From Sphingomonadaceae bacterium (GTDB lineage Bacteria; Pseudomonadota; Alphaproteobacteria; Sphingomonadales; Sphingomonadaceae), in assembly GCA_019239915.1 (NCBI GenBank), contig JAFAZF010000071.1, positions 1 to 55,826 of the forward strand: 55,826 bases of DNA. The letters are read 5' to 3'. The position numbers and the translations under genes are program-made. Below the pieces are notes generated by a model. It saw only the letters and a list, made by a program, of their open reading frames with translations, did no database searches and was not told the origin of the DNA. Shown here one piece after another: positions 38,441-48,171 of this stretch. Positions within the stretch are counted from its first letter, which is position 1. The number at the start of each line of letters is the position of its first letter.

Positions 38441-39418
38441 TCACGCGCCGGGGATGCCGAGTGCCTTGGCGGCCTCGCCCAGCCGCGCCAACTGCTCGCG
38501 ATCGCCAGCGAAGGCCTGACGCGCGCTGGCGAAGGCGGACTGCGCGCCGGCGGCGTCGTTGAGCACCATCTTGGCGCGCATCAGCCGCATCCAGCCATCG
38601 GCGTCGTGCGGGTTCTGCTGCAGCCGGGCGGCGAGCTTGGCGACCATGCCTTGGACCATCTGGTCCTGCGCCGAGGGCGGCAGCGAGGAGGCCTGCTCCA
38701 TCTGCTCGCGGCTGGGGCCGGGGATCGCGGCGGTGGCGATATCGGCGCCCGATCCCTGCGGCGGCGCGGCGGCGGCCTGCTGTGCGGGGGTCAGCTGCGC
38801 CGGCGGCGGCACGCGCCCGGCGACGTCGATCTTGTTCGCGGTCGCGACCTTGGTGATGAGTTCGCGAACCTGACCGTCCCATGGCGCCCCCGCCGGCGTG
38901 TCCTTGAGCAGCGCGATCCAATCGTCGACGGCGCCCTTGTGATCGCCCGCCATGTCCTTCTCGACGCCGATGAAATAGCGCGAGCGCGCATCCTTCGGAT
39001 CGATCTTCAGCGCGTGGCGGAAGGCGGCGTCTGCGTCCGGCGTCACCCCGGCGTTGCCGGCGAGCACCGTCGCCTCGCCGAGCGCCGACCAATAGTCCGC
39101 CTTGCCGGGATCGAGCGTCGCCGCCTGCTTGTAGGCGCGCGCGCTGTCGGCATAGCGGCCCGTCTCGAAATAGGACCAGGCGAGCATTCGCCAGCCGGCC
39201 GGATCATTGGGGGAGGTCTTCAGCTTCTTCTCGAGCTGGCCGACCATGTCCTGCACGCTGCCGACATTCTGGTTCGCGGCAACCGCGGCGGACGGCGGCG
39301 ACGGCGCCGGGCGCGAGCGCCAGACCGCGACACCGACCGCCGCGATCGCCACCAGCCCCGCCACGATGAGCATGATTCCGCCCGCGCCGATTCGCGCCAA
39401 CCCGCCCTGCCTAGCCAT
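38441..39418 (-). CDS. TPR protein, CcmI/CycH-like cytochrome c biogenesis factor
   Basis: A 325-residue inner-membrane protein. One N-terminal helix (GGIMLIVAGLVAIAAVGVAVW, about 13-33) leads into a periplasmic part with tetratricopeptide repeats (DPAGWRMLAWSYFETGRYAD, KADYWSALGEATVLAG, DARSRYFIGVEKDMAG and a later DADGWMRLMRAKMVL). This resembles CcmI/CycH, which presents apocytochrome c to the haem ligation complex. It is divergent from an operon encoding a decahaem cytochrome c, and that location supports a role in cytochrome c maturation. The other ccm genes are not in the window, so it could be a dedicated extra factor. Confidence 0.75.
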   Translation of the reverse strand: MARQGGLARIGAGGIMLIVAGLVAIAAVGVAVWRSRPAPSPPSAAVAANQNVGSVQDMVGQLEKKLKTSPNDPAGWRMLAWSYFETGRYADSARAYKQAATLDPGKADYWSALGEATVLAGNAGVTPDADAAFRHALKIDPKDARSRYFIGVEKDMAGDHKGAVDDWIALLKDTPAGAPWDGQVRELITKVATANKIDVAGRVPPPAQLTPAQQAAAAPPQGSGADIATAAIPGPSREQMEQASSLPPSAQDQMVQGMVAKLAARLQQNPHDADGWMRLMRAKMVLNDAAGAQSAFASARQAFAGDREQLARLGEAAKALGIPGA

Positions 39419-39600: not shown

Positions 39601-42051
39601 ATGGCTGAGGCGTATCGCGTCGCCATCGTCGGATCGGGTCCGGCGGGGCTCAGTGCAGCGGCACGTGCCGCGCAGCTCGGCATCAGCCATGTCCTGCTCG
39701 AGAAGACCGACCATCTTTCTGATACGATTTACAAATATCAGAAGGGCAAGCACGTCATGGCGACGCCGAGCCAGCTCGTGCTGCGCTCGGATTGCGACTT
39801 CGACGCCGGCAAGCGCGAGGCGATCCTCGACGTCTGGAATCGGCAGGCGAGCGAGCAGAAGATCAACGTCCGCTATCATAGCGAGGTCGTGAAGATCGGC
39901 GGAGTCGCGGGCGCGTTCACGATCGCGCTGAAAGGCGGCGCCGAGATCCAGGCCGAGGCGATCGTGCTGGCGATCGGCACGCAAGGCAATCCCAACACGC
40001 TGAGGGTGCCCGGCGTCGAAACCAACACCGTCCAGTATCAGCTCGACGATCCCGGCGAATATGTCGACGAGCATATCACCGTCATCGGCTCGGGCGACGC
40101 CGGCATCGAGAATGCCGTCGGCCTCGCCGCCGATCCCGAACAGCGCAACACCGTCACCATCCTCAACCGCTCGGCCGATTTCAGCCGCGCCAAGGACGCC
40201 AACGTCAAGCTGCTCTTCTCGATGCGCGATGCCGGTCGGCTGACGGTGATGACCGATACGGCACCGAACCTGCTCGAGGAAGGCTTCATCACGCTCGACA
40301 CGCGCGACGGCGTCGCCAAGATCCCCTGCAACCGAGTCATCGCGCGCATGGGCTCGGCCGCGCCGCGCAAGTTCATCGAAGAGTGCGGCATCGAGTTCAC
40401 CAGCCCCGATCGCGAGGCTTTCCCGAAGCTCTCGCCGGTCTTCGAGTCGACCAATGCCGGGATCTTCGTGATCGGCGCGCTCGCGGGCTATCCGCTCATC
40501 AAGCACTGCATGAACCAGGGCTATGACGTCATCGAGTTCATCAACGGCAACCGCACGCTGAAGCCCGCCGACGAACCGATCCTCGAGGGCAAGTTCAAGG
40601 ATCTGCCGGGACGCCGCGGAGTCGAATATTGGCTCGAGTTCCTGCGCGACAACGTGGCGATCCTCGAGGAGCTCTCGCCGCTGCAGATGCGCGAGTTCAT
40701 GCTCGATTCGGATGTGCATGCGGTGCGCAAGGGCGAGGTCGTCTTCGAGCGCAACGCGCCCGGCTCCTCGCTGTTCGGCATCGCCTCGGGCGGCGTCCGC
40801 ATCGAGATCGATCCGCGCGATCCCACCCGCGCCGTGCCGGTGCGCGCCGGCTCGGTGTTCGGCGAGGTCGGGCTGATCTCGGGACGGCGGCGCGGTGCCA
40901 CCGTGCGCGCGAGCGAGGATTCGATCCTCGTCGAGATCCCGCGCAACGCCGCCTTGAAGCTGATGGCGTCGGTACCCGCGGCGAAGCGCGCGCTCGCGCG
41001 CATCTCGGTCGAGCGCCAGCTGCTCCAGATCTTCGGTTCGGGCCTCGGCCCCGGCGATCTCGCCGAGGTCGTCAACTCGTCCGAGATCAAGTCGGTCAAG
41101 GCCGGCGAGACGATCATGAACGAGGGCGAGGAAGGCTACGACATCTACGTGATCCGCACCGGATCGATGATCGTCGAGAAGACTATCGGCGGCAAGCCGG
41201 TGTTCCTCTCGTACCTCCCCGCCGGCTCCTACATCGGCGAAATGGCGCTGATCGAAGGCGGCAAGCGCACCGCCACCGTTCGCGCCGGCATCAAGAGCGA
41301 GGTCATCAAGATTTCGGGCGAGGCGTTCAAGGCACTACTCGCCAAGCGCCCGAACCTGCTCGAGAAGGCGCGCGCCGACATGGCGACGCGGCAGGATCTC
41401 AATGCCTTCATCGAGGCGAAGAAGGACAGCTTCTCGGGCGTCGTCGACATGTACAGTTCGGTCGCGGGCTTCCTCGTCCAGAACGGCATCGGCGAAGCGA
41501 CCGACGTGCTGCTGATCGACGAGAATCTCTGCGTCGGCTGCGACAATTGCGAGAAGGCCTGCGCCGACAGTCATGAAGGACTCTCCCGCCTCGATCGCGA
41601 GGCGGGGCGCACCTATGCGCATCTCCATGTGCCGACCTCGTGCCGGCACTGCGAACATCCGCACTGCATGGCGGATTGCCCGCCGAATGCGATCCATCGC
41701 GGACCCGACGGCGAGGTGTTCATCGACGAGACCTGCATCGGCTGCGGCAACTGTCAGCGCAACTGCCCCTATGGCGTGATCCGCATGGACAAGGTGCCGC
41801 CGAAGAAGCCGAGCCTGCTTTCGTGGATCTTCTTTGGGCGAGGGCCGGGGCCGGGCGAACCCTCCAAGAAATGGAGCTACGCGCACGCCAAGGGCGGCGC
41901 CGAGCAGCCCAAGAAGGCGATCAAGTGCGATATGTGCTCGGGCATCGAAGGCGGCCCGGCTTGCGTCCGTGCCTGTCCGACTGGCGCCGCGATCCGCGTC
42001 GCACCCGAGGCGTTCCTCTCGGTTTCGCGGCTCGAGCGGATCGAGGGCTGA
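39601..42051 (+). CDS. Fusion: FAD/NAD(P) reductase - two cNMP-binding domains - four-cluster ferredoxin
   Basis: An 816-residue cytosolic protein. Residues 1-320 are a thioredoxin-reductase-fold flavoprotein with an FAD loop GSGPAG (11-16) and an NAD(P) loop GSGDAG (163-168) but no CxxC redox pair, as in ferredoxin reductases of this fold. Residues 353-470 and 478-595 are two cyclic-nucleotide-binding domains. Their phosphate cassettes keep Gly-Glu and Arg (FGEVGLISGRRRGATV; IGEMALIEGGKRTATV). Residues 640-800 are a ferredoxin module with sixteen cysteines in four groups (CVGCDNCEKAC, CRHCEHPHCMADC, CIGCGNCQRNC, CDMC...CVRAC), as in HybA/DmsB-type subunits. It probably passes electrons between NAD(P)H and the membrane partner encoded 2 bases downstream, under cAMP or cGMP control. 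The ATG at 39601 has GGGGG upstream. Confidence 0.9.
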   Translation: MAEAYRVAIVGSGPAGLSAAARAAQLGISHVLLEKTDHLSDTIYKYQKGKHVMATPSQLVLRSDCDFDAGKREAILDVWNRQASEQKINVRYHSEVVKIGGVAGAFTIALKGGAEIQAEAIVLAIGTQGNPNTLRVPGVETNTVQYQLDDPGEYVDEHITVIGSGDAGIENAVGLAADPEQRNTVTILNRSADFSRAKDANVKLLFSMRDAGRLTVMTDTAPNLLEEGFITLDTRDGVAKIPCNRVIARMGSAAPRKFIEECGIEFTSPDREAFPKLSPVFESTNAGIFVIGALAGYPLIKHCMNQGYDVIEFINGNRTLKPADEPILEGKFKDLPGRRGVEYWLEFLRDNVAILEELSPLQMREFMLDSDVHAVRKGEVVFERNAPGSSLFGIASGGVRIEIDPRDPTRAVPVRAGSVFGEVGLISGRRRGATVRASEDSILVEIPRNAALKLMASVPAAKRALARISVERQLLQIFGSGLGPGDLAEVVNSSEIKSVKAGETIMNEGEEGYDIYVIRTGSMIVEKTIGGKPVFLSYLPAGSYIGEMALIEGGKRTATVRAGIKSEVIKISGEAFKALLAKRPNLLEKARADMATRQDLNAFIEAKKDSFSGVVDMYSSVAGFLVQNGIGEATDVLLIDENLCVGCDNCEKACADSHEGLSRLDREAGRTYAHLHVPTSCRHCEHPHCMADCPPNAIHRGPDGEVFIDETCIGCGNCQRNCPYGVIRMDKVPPKKPSLLSWIFFGRGPGPGEPSKKWSYAHAKGGAEQPKKAIKCDMCSGIEGGPACVRACPTGAAIRVAPEAFLSVSRLERIEG

Positions 42052-42053
42052 CG

Positions 42054-42932
42054 ATGGCGACGCGTCAGCTCAGCCGGTCGGCGCTTGCCGGCGGCACCAA
42101 CCACGAAGGCTTCCTGCGGCACCGCAATTTTCGCTGGCTCAAGATCGCCGGGGGGCTCTGCCTCGTCTCGATCGTCGCCTATCTGCTGATCGACCAGAAG
42201 CCGCACCCGAACGGCGGCAGCGCCTATGGCTACACGCTCGGCACGATCGGCGCGCTGCTGATCCTGTGGCTGACGATGCTCGGGCTGCGCAAGCGTGCGA
42301 TGACGCGCGGCCGCTGGAGTCTCAAGGCGTGGACCTCGGCGCACGTCTATCTCGGCCTCTCGCTGATCATAGTCGCGACGCTGCACACCGGCTTCCACTT
42401 CGGCTGGAACGTCCACACGCTGGCCTATGTGCTGATGATGATCGTGATCCTCTCCGGCATGTACGGGATCACGGTCTACGCCGCGCTGCCGCGCTTCCTC
42501 TCGAACAATCGCGAAGAGACGACGCAGACGCAGATGCTCGACACGCTGCGCTCGCTCGATCGTCAGCTGCACGATGCCGCGCAGCCGCTCGATGCCGGTG
42601 CCGCCGAGCTGGTGCGCCGCAGTCTCGAAGACAATCCGTTCGGCGGCGGCCTCTGGCAGCGGCTCTCCGGCAACTACCCCAAGTGTCCCACGCGGATCGC
42701 CCAGCTCGAGCTGCGGCGGATGGCGCGCGGGATGCGCTCCTCGGTCGGCGCCGATCCGCTGGAGAAGGTTGACATGCTGCTCGAGCGCAAGGAGTCGGCG
42801 CTCACGCTGATCCGCCAGCATCTGCGCTACAAGGCGCTGCTCGAGGTCTGGCTCTACATCCACATTCCGGTGACGTTCGCGCTGATCGCCGCATTGGCCG
42901 CGCACATCATCAGCGTGTTCTTCTACTGGTAA
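42054..42932 (+). CDS. Membrane b-type cytochrome subunit with two His-x13-His helices
   Basis: A 292-residue integral membrane protein with about five hydrophobic helices (near 30-46, 60-78, 95-112, 120-142 and 265-288) and a cytosolic loop of about 115 residues between the fourth and fifth. His97 and His111 lie 14 apart in one helix, and His270 and His284 lie 14 apart in another. This is the spacing by which cytochrome b of bc1 complexes holds two haems across the membrane. Further histidines are His115 and His121. It would link the cytosolic Fe-S fusion (2-base gap upstream) to the periplasmic decahaem protein (10-base gap downstream). It is too short for, and not clearly homologous to, NrfD or DmsC anchors. 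Confidence 0.8.
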   Translation: MATRQLSRSALAGGTNHEGFLRHRNFRWLKIAGGLCLVSIVAYLLIDQKPHPNGGSAYGYTLGTIGALLILWLTMLGLRKRAMTRGRWSLKAWTSAHVYLGLSLIIVATLHTGFHFGWNVHTLAYVLMMIVILSGMYGITVYAALPRFLSNNREETTQTQMLDTLRSLDRQLHDAAQPLDAGAAELVRRSLEDNPFGGGLWQRLSGNYPKCPTRIAQLELRRMARGMRSSVGADPLEKVDMLLERKESALTLIRQHLRYKALLEVWLYIHIPVTFALIAALAAHIISVFFYW

Positions 42933-42942
42933 GGGGGCGGGC

Positions 42943-44820
42943 ATGAGCTTCATCGTCCGCCAGATCTCGCGCACGGCCGAGGGCCGCGAGATCATCCGTC
43001 CGCGCGAGTTCGATCAGGAGGTGCTGACCGTCGGCCGCGACACCGCGAGCGACATCCACCTCGCCGATCTTGCCGTCACGCTCAACCACGCCACCATCCG
43101 CCAACTCGGGCCCGACCGCATCCGTGTCGCGACCGAGAAGGACCTGCCGTTCACCGTCAACGGCCGCACCACTTCGGCAATGGAGATCCCCGTCGCGGGC
43201 GGCGCTGAGATCCGCTTCGGCAGCCATCGCCTGATGGTCTCGCGCGATCCCGAGGGCGGGGCGGGGCTGATCCGCATCGACGTCGAGCGCGTCGAGGCGC
43301 TGTCCGATGCATCCGAGGCGAAGGACGAAGCCAAGGTTTTCTCGCTCGCCGGCAAGATGCCGAGCAAGCGCGCGGTCGCGTGGGGAACGGTGATCGTCGT
43401 CCTGCTTGTCTTCCTGGCATGGCCGATCCTCACCGCCTTCCAGAGCCAGGGCGTCAAGGATCGCGGTCACGGCTTCCACGCCGACCAGACCTGGACGGCC
43501 GGCCCGCTCAGCCTCGCGCACAAGACGCTCGAGACCAACTGCCAGGCGTGCCACCAGAAGCCGTTCGTCGCGGTGCGCGACGATAGCTGCCTGGCCTGCC
43601 ACGCCGGCGTGCACGATCATGGCGATCCGCGCCGGCTGGCGGTGGCGAAGGCTGCGCCCGCGGGCTTCGACAAGATCGAGATCGCCTTCAAGGGCGCGTT
43701 CAACATTCCCGAGGGCCGCTGCGTCGATTGTCACCTCGAGCATGAGGGCGCGACGCGGATGCCGCCGGCACGGCAGAAATTCTGCGCCGATTGCCACGGC
43801 TCGCTGAGCACGCGTCTGACCGACACCGAGATCAGCGACGCCGCTGACTTCGGCACCGCGCACCCGCAGTTCCGTCCGGCGGTCGCGGTCAACTTCGACG
43901 GGCCGAGCCCGATCATCCGCCGCGTCTCGCTCGATCAGCAGCCCAAGGAAGACAACGGCCTCAAATTCCCGCACGCCATGCATCTCTCGACGACCAACGG
44001 CGTCGCGCAGATGGTGCGGACGATGTCCGGCGAGCAGAATTGGGGCCAGTCGCTCCAGTGCAAGGACTGCCATACGCCCGATGCCAACGGCGCCGGCTTC
44101 CGCCCGGTGACGATGGAGCAGAACTGTCAGATGTGCCACGATCTCGCCTTCGACAAGGTCGACGGCACGATCCGCACCTTGCGCCACGGAGATCCCAGGC
44201 AGGTCGTCGCCGAGCTCCGCTCCTATTACGGATCGCATGGCGTCGCGCGGCCGCCGATCCTCGGCGGCATGGGCCGGCGCATTCCGGGTCAGGGCGCCGC
44301 GGCAACGGCGGCGGCCGACTACTATCTGGCGGTCGGCCATAGCGGCGGCGCGGATGCGGCGATCGCCAAGGTCTTCTCGCCGGGCGGCGCCTGCTACGAC
44401 TGCCACATGATCAATCGCGCGACAAACCCCTACACGCTCAACTTCGAGGTGCACCCGGTTCGGCTGCCGCAGCGCTATTTCAAGCTCGGCTGGTTCGATC
44501 ACCGCGCGCACGAGACCGAGAGCTGCGAGAGCTGCCACTCCGCCAAGAAGTCGAACAGCGCGACCGACGTGATGCTGCCCGGCATTGCCACCTGCCGGAG
44601 CTGCCATGGCGGCGAGAGCGCGCACGTCCAGGTGCCGTCCTCCTGCGCGATGTGCCACGACTATCACCGTGGGGACGGCGCGCCGTTCGCGACGCGCACA
44701 GGGAATGGTTCGACGTCGGGCGGCGAGCCGGTTGCCAACCGTGGCGGCATGAGCGCGACCGGCCGTGCCGATCCAAGTCCTGTGACGCGCGTCACAGGCG
44801 GTAGGCGAGCGGCCGGATAA
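42943..44820 (+). CDS. FHA domain - membrane helix - periplasmic decahaem cytochrome c
   Basis: A 625-residue single-pass protein. An N-terminal FHA domain (about 10-100) has the phosphothreonine-binding pattern VGRDTASDIHLADLAVTLNH with Gly31, Arg32, Ser36 and His49. One membrane helix lies at about 144-166 (GTVIVVLLVFLAWPIL). The rest is periplasmic with ten CxxCH haem sites at residues 200, 216, 260, 281, 373, 396, 484, 528, 551 and 568, plus many extra histidines for bis-His ligation. No N-terminal signal peptide is present; the internal helix must export the haem domain. The FHA part would sense a phosphorylated partner in the cytosol while the haem part carries electrons outward. The C-terminal 60 residues are Gly/Arg-rich and lack haem sites. 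Confidence 0.9.
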   Translation: MSFIVRQISRTAEGREIIRPREFDQEVLTVGRDTASDIHLADLAVTLNHATIRQLGPDRIRVATEKDLPFTVNGRTTSAMEIPVAGGAEIRFGSHRLMVSRDPEGGAGLIRIDVERVEALSDASEAKDEAKVFSLAGKMPSKRAVAWGTVIVVLLVFLAWPILTAFQSQGVKDRGHGFHADQTWTAGPLSLAHKTLETNCQACHQKPFVAVRDDSCLACHAGVHDHGDPRRLAVAKAAPAGFDKIEIAFKGAFNIPEGRCVDCHLEHEGATRMPPARQKFCADCHGSLSTRLTDTEISDAADFGTAHPQFRPAVAVNFDGPSPIIRRVSLDQQPKEDNGLKFPHAMHLSTTNGVAQMVRTMSGEQNWGQSLQCKDCHTPDANGAGFRPVTMEQNCQMCHDLAFDKVDGTIRTLRHGDPRQVVAELRSYYGSHGVARPPILGGMGRRIPGQGAAATAAADYYLAVGHSGGADAAIAKVFSPGGACYDCHMINRATNPYTLNFEVHPVRLPQRYFKLGWFDHRAHETESCESCHSAKKSNSATDVMLPGIATCRSCHGGESAHVQVPSSCAMCHDYHRGDGAPFATRTGNGSTSGGEPVANRGGMSATGRADPSPVTRVTGGRRAAG

Positions 44821-44872
44821 AGCTTGCGGTCGGCCGCCGCCTCAGGAGCGGTCCTCGGGAGCGAAACCACGC

Positions 44873-45724
44873 ATGCTGATCGCGCAGATTACCGATCTTC
44901 ACCTCGGCGCGACGAACGGCGACCCTAGGGAAAGCAATGAATCACGGCTCGATCGGGTGCTCGCGCGGCTGACGTCGATGCGGCCGCGGCCCGATCTGCT
45001 GCTGCTGACCGGCGACCTCACCGAGAATGGCTCGTCCAGCGCCTATGCCGCGCTTGCCGAACGGCTGGCGGCGCTCGATTTCCCCGCCTTGCTCGCGGTC
45101 GGCAATCATGATCGCCGGGCGGCGTTTCGCACCCACTTCCCGCACGTGCCGGTGGATGGCGACTTCATCCACTACGTTCACGATGCCGGCCCGCTGCGCA
45201 TCGTCGTGCTCGACAGTCTCGAAGAGGGGCGACATGGCGGCAGCTTCTGCGATCGGCGTGCGGCGTGGCTGAAGCGGCGCCTCGATGAGGCGCCCGACCG
45301 TCCCACCATCATCGTGCTCCATCATCCGCCGATCGAGAGCGGCATCGGCTGGATGACGATCGCGCCGCACGCGCCGTGGGTAACACGCCTCGACGAGGTT
45401 CTCGCTGGCCGCTCCAACGTCGTGGCGATGCTCTCGGGGCATCTTCATCGCCCGATGGTGTCGAGCTGGGGCGGGACGATCATCGCTGCCTGCCCCTCGA
45501 CCGCACCGCCGCTCGCGCTCGAACTCGCGCCCATCGATCCGGCGCATCCGGACGGTCGGCCGCTCGTCACCGCCGACCCGCCGGCCTATGCGCTGCATCT
45601 TTGGACCGGCACGCGCCTGCTCACCCATTTCGAAACGCTGGGCGAGCATGTCCCGGTCGCGCGCTTCGACGCGCAGATGCAGCCTGTGATCGACTGGCTG
45701 GTCAACCAGCCCGCCGGCGACTGA
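44873..45724 (+). CDS. Class III cyclic-nucleotide phosphodiesterase-like metallophosphoesterase
   Basis: A 283-residue cytosolic enzyme of the CpdA/GpdQ group that hydrolyses cAMP or related phosphodiesters with two metals. The ligands appear in order: ITDLHLG (Asp8, His10), LLTGDLTENG, VGNHDRR, LHHPPIE and SGHLHRPM. It follows the decahaem gene by 52 bases on the same strand with GGGAG before the ATG. Placing a cyclic-nucleotide phosphodiesterase beside a protein with two cyclic-nucleotide-binding domains suggests it ends the signal that gates the redox complex. A glycerophosphodiesterase activity is the main alternative. Confidence 0.85.
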   Translation: MLIAQITDLHLGATNGDPRESNESRLDRVLARLTSMRPRPDLLLLTGDLTENGSSSAYAALAERLAALDFPALLAVGNHDRRAAFRTHFPHVPVDGDFIHYVHDAGPLRIVVLDSLEEGRHGGSFCDRRAAWLKRRLDEAPDRPTIIVLHHPPIESGIGWMTIAPHAPWVTRLDEVLAGRSNVVAMLSGHLHRPMVSSWGGTIIAACPSTAPPLALELAPIDPAHPDGRPLVTADPPAYALHLWTGTRLLTHFETLGEHVPVARFDAQMQPVIDWLVNQPAGD

Positions 45725-45954: not shown

Positions 45955-46830
45955 TCAGCGCGCCGGCGTGCTCGCTTCGGCGGTCACGGAACGCGCGAAG
46001 TCGATCATGTCGGCAAGCACCGGCGCCTTGCCGCGGAACGGCCGCGCAACCGCGGTGATGAGGCCGACATGGCCGACATTCGGATAGCGCCGCCGCGCGA
46101 CGCGTACGCCCACGGCGCGGAGATGCGCAGCGAGCGAATCGCTGTTGGCGGGACGAACGGTGGTGTCCTTGTCGCCGGTCGCGAGAAAGGCGGGCGGATC
46201 GCCGGCCTCGACGTAGCCGATCGGCTGGGTCTCGGCCGGGTTCGGCGCGCTGTCAAAGGTCGCGTGCACGATGGGGCCATCGAAGGGAAGGAAGTCATAG
46301 GGTCCGGCGAGGCCGATCAAGCCATGCACGCGGGCGCGGTCGGCACCCAGCCAGCGCGGATCGTAGGCGAGCATCGCCGCATTATAGGCGCCCGCGGAAT
46401 GGCCGGCGAGGATCAGCCTCTGGGGATCGCCGCCATGGGCCGGTGCATGCGCGACGACCCAGCGCACCGCGGCCGCATTGTCTTCCAGGAAGCTCGGGTA
46501 ACGCACGTCCGGCACCAGCCGGTAATCCGGGATCGCGACGAGGAAACCGCGCGCCGCCAGCGCGCGGCCGACGAAGGCGTAGCCGTCCTTTGTCCCCGAA
46601 CTCCACGAGCCGCCATAGATGAAGACTATGACCGGCAGCGAGGCGCCGTTCCGCGCGCTCGGCGCGTAGAGGTCGAGCGCCTGACGCGGATCGTTGCCGA
46701 AACGGGCGTCGCGCAGCACCAGCCCGGCGCCGCTATCCTTGGGAACGAGCGCGTCGAAGGTCTTGAGCGGCGAGCAGGCGGCCGCCAGCATGGCGAGCAG
46801 CGCGCCGACCGCGCGTCGTCCAAATCCCAC
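45955..46830 (-). CDS. Lipoprotein alpha/beta-hydrolase (carboxylesterase)
   Basis: A 291-residue secreted esterase. From the GTG at 46830 (AGGGGG just upstream) it begins with a lipoprotein signal peptide ending LLAMLAAAC, with the cysteine as lipid anchor. The hydrolase core has an oxyanion loop IYGGSWSSG, the nucleophile in LAGHSAGAYN, Asp in ATGDKDTTV and His in NVGHVGL, the complete triad. An open frame extends upstream into the divergent sigma factor gene but lacks a signal peptide and is rejected. It faces the sigma factor gene, so the two may share a regulated promoter region. The substrate is unknown; lipid or acetyl esters are possible. Confidence 0.85.
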   Translation of the reverse strand: MGFGRRAVGALLAMLAAACSPLKTFDALVPKDSGAGLVLRDARFGNDPRQALDLYAPSARNGASLPVIVFIYGGSWSSGTKDGYAFVGRALAARGFLVAIPDYRLVPDVRYPSFLEDNAAAVRWVVAHAPAHGGDPQRLILAGHSAGAYNAAMLAYDPRWLGADRARVHGLIGLAGPYDFLPFDGPIVHATFDSAPNPAETQPIGYVEAGDPPAFLATGDKDTTVRPANSDSLAAHLRAVGVRVARRRYPNVGHVGLITAVARPFRGKAPVLADMIDFARSVTAEASTPAR

Positions 46831-46897
46831 ATCGCCCCCTGTCGCTTGGCAGCCCCGCGAGAAGTTCCTACTGTGCGATTTGGATGAGGGCCGCAAG

Positions 46898-47470
46898 ATG
46901 ATCGACGGGAAGCCGGCGTCTTCGGCGGACATGCCAGCCGACATGCTCGGCGCCTTGCTGCGCCGCGTCGGGCTCGGCGATCGCGCCGCCTTCGAGGCAC
47001 TCTACCGGCGCACCTCCGCGAAACTTTTCGGCGTCTGCCTCCGTATCTTGCCAGGACGGCATGAGGCGGAGGAAGCGTTGCAGGAGGTCTATCTGTCGGT
47101 GTGGAGGCGAGCGGAATCCTACGATCCCGCGCGCGGCACCGCGATGACCTGGCTGATCACCATGGCGCGCAATCGTGCGGTCGATCGGCTGCGCTCCGGT
47201 GGCAAGTTCACGCCCGCGCCGATCGAACTCGCCGATACCGTCGCTGACGGTGCGCCGCTCGCAACCGCGATCATCGAGGAGGGGCAGGATACCGCGCGGC
47301 TCGCCCATTGCGTCGGCACGCTCGAGGCACACGAGGCGGTGCTGATCCGCACCGCTTTCTTCGAGGGCGCGACCTATGCCGAGCTCGCGACGCGCGTCGC
47401 GATGCCGCTCGGCACGATCAAGAGCCGCATCCGCCGCGCGCTTGCCAAGCTGCGCGCCTGCCTCGCATGA
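46898..47470 (+). CDS. ECF-family RNA polymerase sigma factor
   Basis: A 190-residue extracytoplasmic-function sigma factor. Region 2 reads EAEEALQEVYLSVWRRAESY and MTWLITMARNRAVDRLR, with core binding and -10 recognition. Region 4 reads EAVLIRTAFFEGATYAELAT and GTIKSRIRRALAKLR, with -35 recognition. AGGG lies about 8 bases before the ATG. The stop overlaps the anti-sigma start as ATGA. Its neighbours are a lipoprotein esterase and, after the anti-sigma gene, the lipid-modification cluster, which may be its regulon, as an RpoE-type factor controls cfa genes in Rhodobacter. I could not find a shared promoter motif by eye. Confidence 0.93.
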   Translation: MIDGKPASSADMPADMLGALLRRVGLGDRAAFEALYRRTSAKLFGVCLRILPGRHEAEEALQEVYLSVWRRAESYDPARGTAMTWLITMARNRAVDRLRSGGKFTPAPIELADTVADGAPLATAIIEEGQDTARLAHCVGTLEAHEAVLIRTAFFEGATYAELATRVAMPLGTIKSRIRRALAKLRACLA

Positions 47471-48171
47471 GCGATTCCGCGCTTTCGGAGGAGGACGACC
47501 TTCTCGCCGCCGAACGGGCCTTCGGGCTGCTCGATGCGAGCGAAGTCCGCGCGGCGGAAGCGCGCGCCGATCGCGACCCGGTTTTTGCGGCGGCATGCGC
47601 CTATTGGGACAATCACGCTGCGGCGCTGGCGGCCGGCGGCGGCGAAGAGCCCGGCGAGGCGCTGTGGGCGGCGATCGTCGCCCGGCTTCCGGCCAACGAT
47701 GGCGGCGGCGTGCCGGTTGCCCGGCTGCGTCGCTGGCAGGCGCTAACGCTGGCGGCGACGGCGGCGGCGATCCTGCTCGCGGTGATCGGCGGGCCGCATA
47801 TTGCGCGGCAACCGCCACTCACGCCCGCCGCGGTCACACCGGCTGCTCCGCTGATCGCCACGCTTACCGGCAAGGCCGGGACGGTGACGATCAGCTACGA
47901 TCGCGCCAACCAGAAGTTGCTGTCCGCCCCGAACGGGCTCGAGGTTGGCGATCGCGCCGCCGAGTTGTGGGTGATCCCGGTCGGCGGCAAGCCGCGCTCG
48001 CTCGGGGTCATCGCTGCCGCCACGCCGCGCTGGCAGCCGGCACGGCTTCCGGCGGCCTCGGCGATCGCACCCGGCGCGACGCTCGCCATCTCGCTCGAGC
48101 CGCAGGGCGGCTCGCCGACCGGCCAGCCGACCGGCCCGGTGGTTCTTACCGGCAGCGTCGTCCAAGCCTAG
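47467..48171 (+). CDS. Membrane anti-sigma factor (RskA-like)
   Basis: A 234-residue single-pass regulator. The N-terminal cytosolic helical domain (LLAAERAFGLLDASEVRAAE, DPVFAAACAYWDNHAAALA) binds the sigma factor. A membrane helix is at about 97-115 (ALTLAATAAAILLAVIGG), and a periplasmic domain has GKAGTVTISYDR and AAELWVIPVGGKPRSLGVI, as in RskA-type anti-sigma factors. It lacks the Zn-binding HxxxCxxC motif of ChrR-like anti-sigmas, so the signal is probably envelope stress read outside, with release by proteolysis. The 4-base overlap with the sigma gene ensures matched synthesis. Confidence 0.9.
   Translation: MSDSALSEEDDLLAAERAFGLLDASEVRAAEARADRDPVFAAACAYWDNHAAALAAGGGEEPGEALWAAIVARLPANDGGGVPVARLRRWQALTLAATAAAILLAVIGGPHIARQPPLTPAAVTPAAPLIATLTGKAGTVTISYDRANQKLLSAPNGLEVGDRAAELWVIPVGGKPRSLGVIAAATPRWQPARLPAASAIAPGATLAISLEPQGGSPTGQPTGPVVLTGSVVQA

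Follow-up and report, generated by a model that had tools for sequence, protein, structure and literature searches.

A Sphingomonadaceae contig carries four neighbouring genes that, judging from their sequences, look like the inner-membrane half of an electron conduit. The stretch analysed (the window, 55,826 nucleotides of contig JAFAZF010000071.1 in assembly GCA_019239915.1) contains them as four plus-strand open reading frames (ORFs) at 39601-45724, separated by gaps of 2, 10 and 52 bases. They encode a flavin reductase fused to two cyclic-nucleotide-binding (cNMP) domains and a four-cluster ferredoxin (RED, gene 1), a membrane cytochrome b (cytb, gene 2), an FHA-type decahaem cytochrome c (FHA cytochrome, gene 3) and a phosphodiesterase-like protein (gene 4) (Table 1). 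The system is real and conserved, is larger than a preceding sequence-only reading had it, and is of the porin-cytochrome kind, its input carrying second-messenger domains. With modest confidence, we lean towards an NAD(P)H-linked trans-envelope electron conduit under cyclic-nucleotide control at the input. The operon itself is as the sequence-only reading had claimed in ORFs, strands and gaps; its description as a four-gene system is not borne out, because the window's genome encodes, on other contigs, a cytochrome module of outer-membrane type. A closed four-gene system is thus rejected, and in many other Proteobacteria inner and outer genes form one operon.

The domain composition proposed for RED is confirmed by Pfam and by its sixteen conserved Cys. 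PF00027 is matched twice (112.7 bits, cut-off 27.5), Pyr_redox_3 and Pyr_redox_2 at 92.5 and 76.2 bits, and PF13247, a Fer4 family, at 43.7 bits against a cut-off of 26.2. The predicted fold of the flavin domain is close to that of YpdA (7a7b; TMt 0.86, 20% identity); the RED model (pLDDT 76.3, with values under 50 over much of the Fe-S part) was used for this domain and not for the arrangement of domains. Cytb matches Ni_hydr_CYTB (cytochrome b561-type) weakly, at 25.3 bits, under the cut-off of 30.1. Gene 3 gives Cytochrome_C7/c3 matches and a weak match to the FHA-type PF16697 (23.4 bits, under the cut-off of 33.2), and gene 4 matches Metallophos (63.7 bits). The topology of gene 3 and the transmembrane (TM) helices of cytb were read by eye from the sequence.

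Redox and sensor residues are close to invariant. Counts of residues and C-termini took in near-complete copies alone. All 151 near-full-length RED sequences have the glycines counted in the FAD and NAD dinucleotide motifs and all sixteen Fe-S Cys; 80 of the sequences were found through reductase and Cys-containing peptide patterns, which biases the Cys and reductase counts, and the cNMP cassettes lie outside those patterns. G421, E422 and R431 of cNMP domain 1 and G546, E547 and R556 of domain 2 also occur in every one of the 151 sequences. Both cassettes are thus intact. The transmembrane redox path drawn by the sequence-only reading is supported. The two-haem cytochrome b likewise stands, since its four His, set in two W-x3-H-x13-H motifs, are found in 134/134 cytb sequences (SGxxG in 131/134). 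In the FHA cytochrome, ten CXXCH sites are kept in 129/131 copies and nine in the other 2/131. An FHA motif that binds phospho-Thr has GR, a Ser (SxxH) and an Asn (NG). GR is present in 131/131, no residue exceeds 37/131 in the Ser column, and Asn occurs in 74/131. The decahaem part of the gene 3 assignment therefore holds, whereas its FHA domain comes without the usual phospho-Thr-binding Ser, and canonical phospho-Thr reading by this domain was rejected on the 131 sequences.

Within Sphingomonadaceae the core genes travel together. Cytb was sought in 119 family genomes, of which 42 matched, 41 of them strongly; 35 of 96 genera are represented, the weak match counted. Leaving aside the window's own, 40 family genomes matched strongly; regions were taken from 38 of them (all but G023 and G116), and RED, cytb and FHA cytochrome are adjacent and in the same order in 38/38, so that the possibility of homologues never occurring together does not hold. 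RED is 63-78% identical to its counterparts in 23 aligned relatives of the family. Sphingobium herbicidovorans (L039) falls within the family ranges at 75% for RED and 67% for cytb (family 52-70%), and RED of named loci from other groups is 47-54% identical to the window's. As judged from these alignments, the conservation of RED and of gene order is far more than chance. In S. herbicidovorans the system lies on pMSHV (L039/L078), a replicon of about 1 Mb, and gene 3 is present on 12 Sphingobium plasmid records.

An outer half of the system is seen on the S. herbicidovorans plasmid, where a convergent set follows the cluster. It comprises an outer cytochrome (1329 amino acids, ten CXXCH, LVIVD repeats), a 612-aa protein that matched no Pfam family (the barrel), an HbpS-like protein (HBP) and a tetrahaem protein matching the cytochrome c554 family (C554). 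Beyond the C554 gene lie a 2092-aa protein without a Pfam family and a ShlB-type transporter. In the window's genome the outer cytochrome and barrel are on contig C1, and HBP and C554 on C16. The outer cytochrome falls inside the fetched region in 20/38 family regions. Genome-wide searches found it in 19/19 genomes (the other 18 system genomes and the window's) and in 0/11 genomes without gene 2, and among the remaining family genomes in 2/2 with gene 2 and 1/67 without a strong gene 2 match. In total, it occurs in 41/41 system genomes versus 1/78 others of the family, although these are not independent events because the genomes share ancestry. Ten CXXCH sites are kept in 37/37 near-full-length copies (18/18 and 19/19). 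PDB searches with gene 3 and the outer cytochrome gave weak matches alone. For the barrel, structure prediction (L232) gives 18 long strands (pLDDT 73.6); its best PDB fold match is AlgE (E 7.6e-17), with MOMP and Occ porins as other top matches and no MtrB among the best 50 folds. Outer-membrane barrels typically end in Phe or Tyr, and the barrel C-terminus is F or Y in 45/45 near-complete copies.

Beyond the family, the two halves often lie together in a single operon. A class-level profile search of 385 genomes gave 51 matches, 48 outside the family and 34 of those strong; regions were fetched for 29 of the 34 strong and 5 of the 14 weak ones. The 29 strong regions carry the FHA cytochrome in every case and RED in 26, and in 18 of them HBP, barrel and outer cytochrome are co-directional with the inner genes in one apparent operon. 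Matches of the TPR model antisense to RED in class-level regions proved to be stop-to-stop readings of divergent genes, and that model was then dropped. A phylum search of 398 genomes gave 20 matches, and 11 regions were fetched, including five type I loci outside the class (L205-L209). One genus outside the class has two genomes (G629 and G524; L208 and L209) in which a single ORF of 1120-1125 aa encodes both RED and cytb, a fusion that speaks for the two working as a unit.

A scan of 84,980 species genomes found at least 572 matching stretches that encode RED relatives; two patterns were used, so the loci may number fewer than the stretches. Eighty loci were kept, most of them titled Alpha-, Beta- or Gammaproteobacteria and including Oceanibacterium, Solimonas, Dokdonella, Tahibacter and Lysobacter. 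RED is present in all 80, FHA cytochrome in 66, cytb in 64, HBP in 56, barrel in 53, outer cytochrome in 52, C554 in 30 and the phosphodiesterase in 0, many of the loci being truncated where a contig or flank stops. Several betaproteobacterial-titled loci have RED at the far end, and in these the fetched flank stops at the FHA cytochrome, which would leave cytb beyond it. Six loci (L273, L281, L285, L287, L288 and L295) come from metagenome-assembled genomes (MAGs) whose titles give implausible species (Bordetella parapertussis, Klebsiella pneumoniae, Mesoflavibacter); these are probably mislabelled bins and not evidence of carriage by the named species.

Within the family the phosphodiesterase strictly accompanies the system: an orthologue was found in 17/17 system genomes tested versus 0/19 others (17 of the 41 system genomes and 19 of the 78 other genomes were tested). 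Besides the window's own, the orthologues are 43-56% identical over nearly their full length; 12 of the 19 non-system genomes give weak partial matches at 28-39% identity. The gene adjoins the cluster in 36/38 fetched family regions; in the other two, the orthologue is beside the outer cytochrome (G072, L117) or on the same contig (G030). The class III metal-ligand motif runs DxH, GD, GNHD, H and GHxH, and the ligands D8, H10, D48, N78, H79, H150, H190 and H192 are invariant in 20 sequences. The Metallophos match upholds the phosphodiesterase-like assignment of the sequence-only reading, although the protein scores under both curated NCBIfam cut-offs, at 93.4 versus 225 for CpdA and 119.6 versus 400 for SpdA, the best-scoring model. 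Outside the family the model matched in 1 of 125 regions (0/34 class-level, 1/11 phylum, 0/80 named loci), the sole match (L211, 281 bits) lying 4.7 kb downstream of the FHA cytochrome. The co-occurrence of a class III phosphodiesterase raised by the sequence-only reading thus holds within the family, while a core role is rejected on this near absence elsewhere; the gene is a Sphingomonadaceae addition. The window's genome also has a cyclase-type gene (PF00211, 54 bits).

A model of the system would run as follows. RED, a cytoplasmic FAD protein, would exchange electrons with NAD(P)H, its presumed donor, and its four [4Fe-4S] clusters would relay them to the di-haem cytb, with which it may form a complex. 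Cytb would then move the electrons over the inner membrane to the periplasmic decahaem part of the FHA-anchored cytochrome c, from which they could pass to the outer-membrane module (predicted 18-strand barrel, LVIVD decahaem cytochrome, HbpS-like protein and tetrahaem C554) and on to the cell surface, where an exposed haem chain might serve an extracellular partner. The flow would probably be outward. The two cNMP domains probably decide electron entry; because two intact cNMP domains sit between the flavin and Fe-S domains, ligand control of this step is our best guess for their role, and cyclic-nucleotide gating is plausible. In Sphingomonadaceae, the phosphodiesterase probably clears the ligand or keeps the competing 2',3' isomer away.

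Several observations weigh against this model. The PCC4-like locus L180 has no flavin domain, so NAD(P)H cannot serve as donor in every relative; quinones are a possible donor. RED was not matched in 3 of the 29 strong class-level regions (L170, L174 and L185), and HBP, barrel and outer cytochrome are all missing from 9 of the 29, of which three are contigs under 5 kb. Inner and outer genes are unlinked in 18 of the 38 fetched family regions, and G022 (67% complete) has the outer cytochrome without gene 2. Three stretches (L257 from a Thiomargarita MAG, L265 from a Thiotrichales MAG, and L293) contain RED without any cytochrome or other partner gene. Outside the family, the phosphodiesterase is seldom met. 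The fold matches of the barrel point to AlgE-type exporters and not to MtrB, which makes a sheath role for it a guess.

The direction and destination of the electrons could also differ from those preferred here. The conduit might work inward: a donor outside the cell, such as Fe(II), Mn(II) or a reduced organic compound, would deliver electrons to the outer cytochrome, to be pushed on to NAD(P)+ or quinone, and cyclic nucleotides would limit so costly an uptake to times of need. In the accessible text PCC3 and PCC4, which have the same cytochrome b motifs, are modelled as delivering electrons to the quinone pool from a donor outside the cell (PMC5566968), and the available part of another study lists 27 Gallionellaceae genomes with an FHA protein of 10 haems (PMC10734462). 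Electron direction is not fixed by sequence. The step from NAD(P)H to haems b and c is nevertheless energetically downhill, uptake to NAD(P)+ would cost membrane energy, and the loci include Dokdonella and Solimonas, which are heterotrophs; we regard inward flow as rather improbable. An alternative that dispenses with the extracellular step is that the system supplies reductant to redox enzymes of the periplasm or outer membrane, for repair of haem or thiols or so that the large decahaem protein can detoxify a soluble oxidant, the barrel being a substrate porin or exporter. The fold matches of the barrel (AlgE, MOMP and Occ porins) would fit such a role, as would the HbpS-like and c554-type proteins; the ten haems in both large cytochromes and the recurrent barrel, however, look wire-like in our judgement, and this explanation appears unlikely.

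Gating itself may be absent. The cNMP domains might be structural or bind something other than 3',5'-cAMP/cGMP, and the phosphodiesterase might handle RNA-derived 2',3'-cyclic nucleotides for unrelated reasons. Its best score is against SpdA, which in the text available shows high activity on 2',3'-cAMP/cGMP and none detectable on 3',5'-cAMP (PMC4222275), and its near absence outside the family points the same way. The G-E...R residues of both cassettes, however, persist in all 151 sequences despite divergence to about 50% identity, and an ungated system is doubtful, with a real minority chance. The gated conduit set out above remains the reading that we favour. A fuller form of it is put forward tentatively, at somewhat less than even confidence: a widespread proteobacterial trans-envelope wire that takes its electrons directly from NAD(P)H, in which a cyclic nucleotide bound within the electron-carrying protein acts as an allosteric switch and, in Sphingomonadaceae, the phosphodiesterase resets it.

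Known extracellular electron conduits are mostly modelled as quinol-fed through dedicated inner-membrane cytochromes and as controlled by expression; here a flavin/Fe-S arm with tandem cyclic-nucleotide domains would feed the decahaem chain. If true, a second messenger would act on the wire itself and not on gene expression to control the export (or uptake) of electrons. Electron flux would then have a second-messenger switch, the inner membrane a new entry point, and the chain a barrel partner that differs from MtrB. Many of the carrier lineages are not known to be electroactive. The relatives include named, cultured strains such as Sphingobium herbicidovorans, Dokdonella immobilis and Solimonas terrae.

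Two neighbourhoods of the cluster deserve mention. A CcmI-like TPR gene lies upstream of RED in 37/38 family regions (30 within 1 kb, 7 about 3-4 kb off), and is perhaps a dedicated accessory for haem-c attachment or maturation. Downstream of the cluster, at 46760-48171 on the plus strand, an ECF-type sigma factor is followed by an RskA-type anti-sigma factor.

Table 1. Features of the redox cluster in the window and its divergent neighbour (aa, amino acids).
Feature	Position	Strand	Remarks
RED: YpdA-like FAD/NAD(P) reductase + two cNMP-binding domains + 4 x [4Fe-4S], 816 aa	39601..42051	+	
RED FAD/NAD(P) reductase domain, aa 5-307	39613..40521	+	Pyr_redox_2/3; closest fold YpdA 7a7b
RED cNMP-binding domain 1	40720..40968	+	PF00027; phosphate-binding cassette aa 420-435 (40858-40905)
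RED cNMP-binding domain 2	41089..41346	+	PF00027; phosphate-binding cassette aa 545-560 (41233-41280)
RED four-cluster ferredoxin domain, aa 637-798, 16 Cys	41509..41994	+	Fer4 families
cytb: di-haem membrane cytochrome b, 292 aa	42054..42932	+	likely haem ligands H97/H111, H270/H284
FHA cytochrome: FHA-TM-decahaem cytochrome c, 625 aa	42943..44820	+	CXXCH count; Pfam c7/c3
FHA-like domain of gene 3, aa 22-99	43006..43239	+	PF16697 weak; cytoplasmic by inferred topology
Ten CXXCH haem-c sites of gene 3, aa 200-572	43540..44658	+	periplasmic by inferred topology; TM ~aa 147-165
Class III (metallophosphoesterase) cyclic-nucleotide phosphodiesterase-like protein, 283 aa	44873..45724	+	Metallophos
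CcmI/CycH-like TPR gene, divergent neighbour	38441..39418	-	PF23914 72.1 bits

Among known systems, MtrCAB, PioAB and MtoAB share the general plan of an inner-membrane donor, a periplasmic decahaem cytochrome, a barrel and a surface decahaem cytochrome. They differ in that the window-type barrel has no Pfam family and no MtrB in its best 50 folds, and gene 3 matches c7/c3 families. The input of MtrCAB-type systems is a CymA-like cytochrome, whereas here it would be a flavin/Fe-S/cytochrome b arm. RED has the flavin-domain fold (7a7b) of the YpdA/Bdr bacillithiol disulfide reductases; it scores 111.5 bits against a YpdA (TIGR04018) cut-off of 339.9, and is fused to cNMP and Fe-S domains. The position that we take to be the YpdA active-site Cys is Cys in only 8/151 RED sequences. 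Gene 4 shares fold family and metal-ligand pattern with the class III phosphodiesterases CpdA and SpdA, but falls under both curated cut-offs and is tied to an electron-transfer locus.

PCC3 has the same inner-membrane protein (IMP) motifs, a porin with periplasmic and extracellular cytochromes, and a distribution over Alpha-, Beta- and Gammaproteobacteria, as far as the accessible texts describe it (PMC5566968, PMC10734462). By published haem numbers alone it differs, with medians of 34 and 21 (PMC5566968) versus a near-constant 10 and 10 here; Gallionellaceae PCC3 extracellular cytochromes are given 10-35 haems in the text available (PMC10734462). The FHA protein with 10 haems noted above stands in that source as a row under "Other", and "forkhead" occurs once in the available text (PMC10734462); likened by description, it probably belongs to the family of gene 3.

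PCC4, a putative porin-cytochrome cluster, comes closer. As proposed in the open text of He et al. (2017, PMC5566968), it comprises a porin, cytochromes with 4, 5 and 10 haems, and a five-TM IMP that bears SGxxG and two Wx3Hx13H motifs and has a pfam13247 Fe-S gene upstream of its own. The window system agrees in the motifs of cytb (frequencies above), in the PF13247 Fe-S gene next to the IMP-type gene, in decahaem and tetrahaem cytochromes and in a porin. It differs by an added FAD/NAD(P) domain, FHA domain, LVIVD decahaem outer cytochrome and HBP, and in its haem numbers of 4 (C554), 10 and 10; no further ORF with at least three CXXCH, and hence no pentahaem protein, was found in seven type I regions checked (12-20 kb each). 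One candidate PCC4 porin (L184) was compared with the window-type barrel and showed no similarity (hhalign probability 0.1). The main text of He et al. (PMC5566968) nowhere uses the term "cyclic nucleotide".

Weakly matching PCC4-like loci (L180-L184, L210, L213-L215) were found in the class-level and phylum searches. By content, L180 and L184 fit PCC4 (4-haem, cNMP/Fe-S, IMP, 10-haem, 5-haem and a candidate porin), and the cytochrome b and Fe-S protein of L180 are homologous to the window's. The two Fe-S proteins scanned, of L180 and L183, carry cNMP domains and Fer4 without a reductase domain; by eye, the first cNMP cassette of this type looks intact and the last degenerate. L174 and L185 combine a tetrahaem-type gene with cytb and FHA cytochrome, without a RED match, and are possible intermediates between the PCC4-like and the present type. 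The sequence-only reading knew of no description of the system. For the whole system this stands within open-licence PMC full text: it is not described in the available parts of PMC5566968, PMC10734462, PMC9226611, PMC13322032 and PMC4222275, and the Thioclava and Methylobacter papers, as far as their accessible text goes, concern other systems. PCC4 qualifies it. Because the L180 and L183 Fe-S proteins carry cNMP domains without a reductase, and that of L180 aligns with RED over the cNMP and Fe-S part alone, the two systems seem to share an inner core of cNMP-ferredoxin, cytochrome b and decahaem cytochrome. As portrayed in the accessible text of PMC5566968, PCC4 is thus an already described distant relative and the nearest published kin of the window system.

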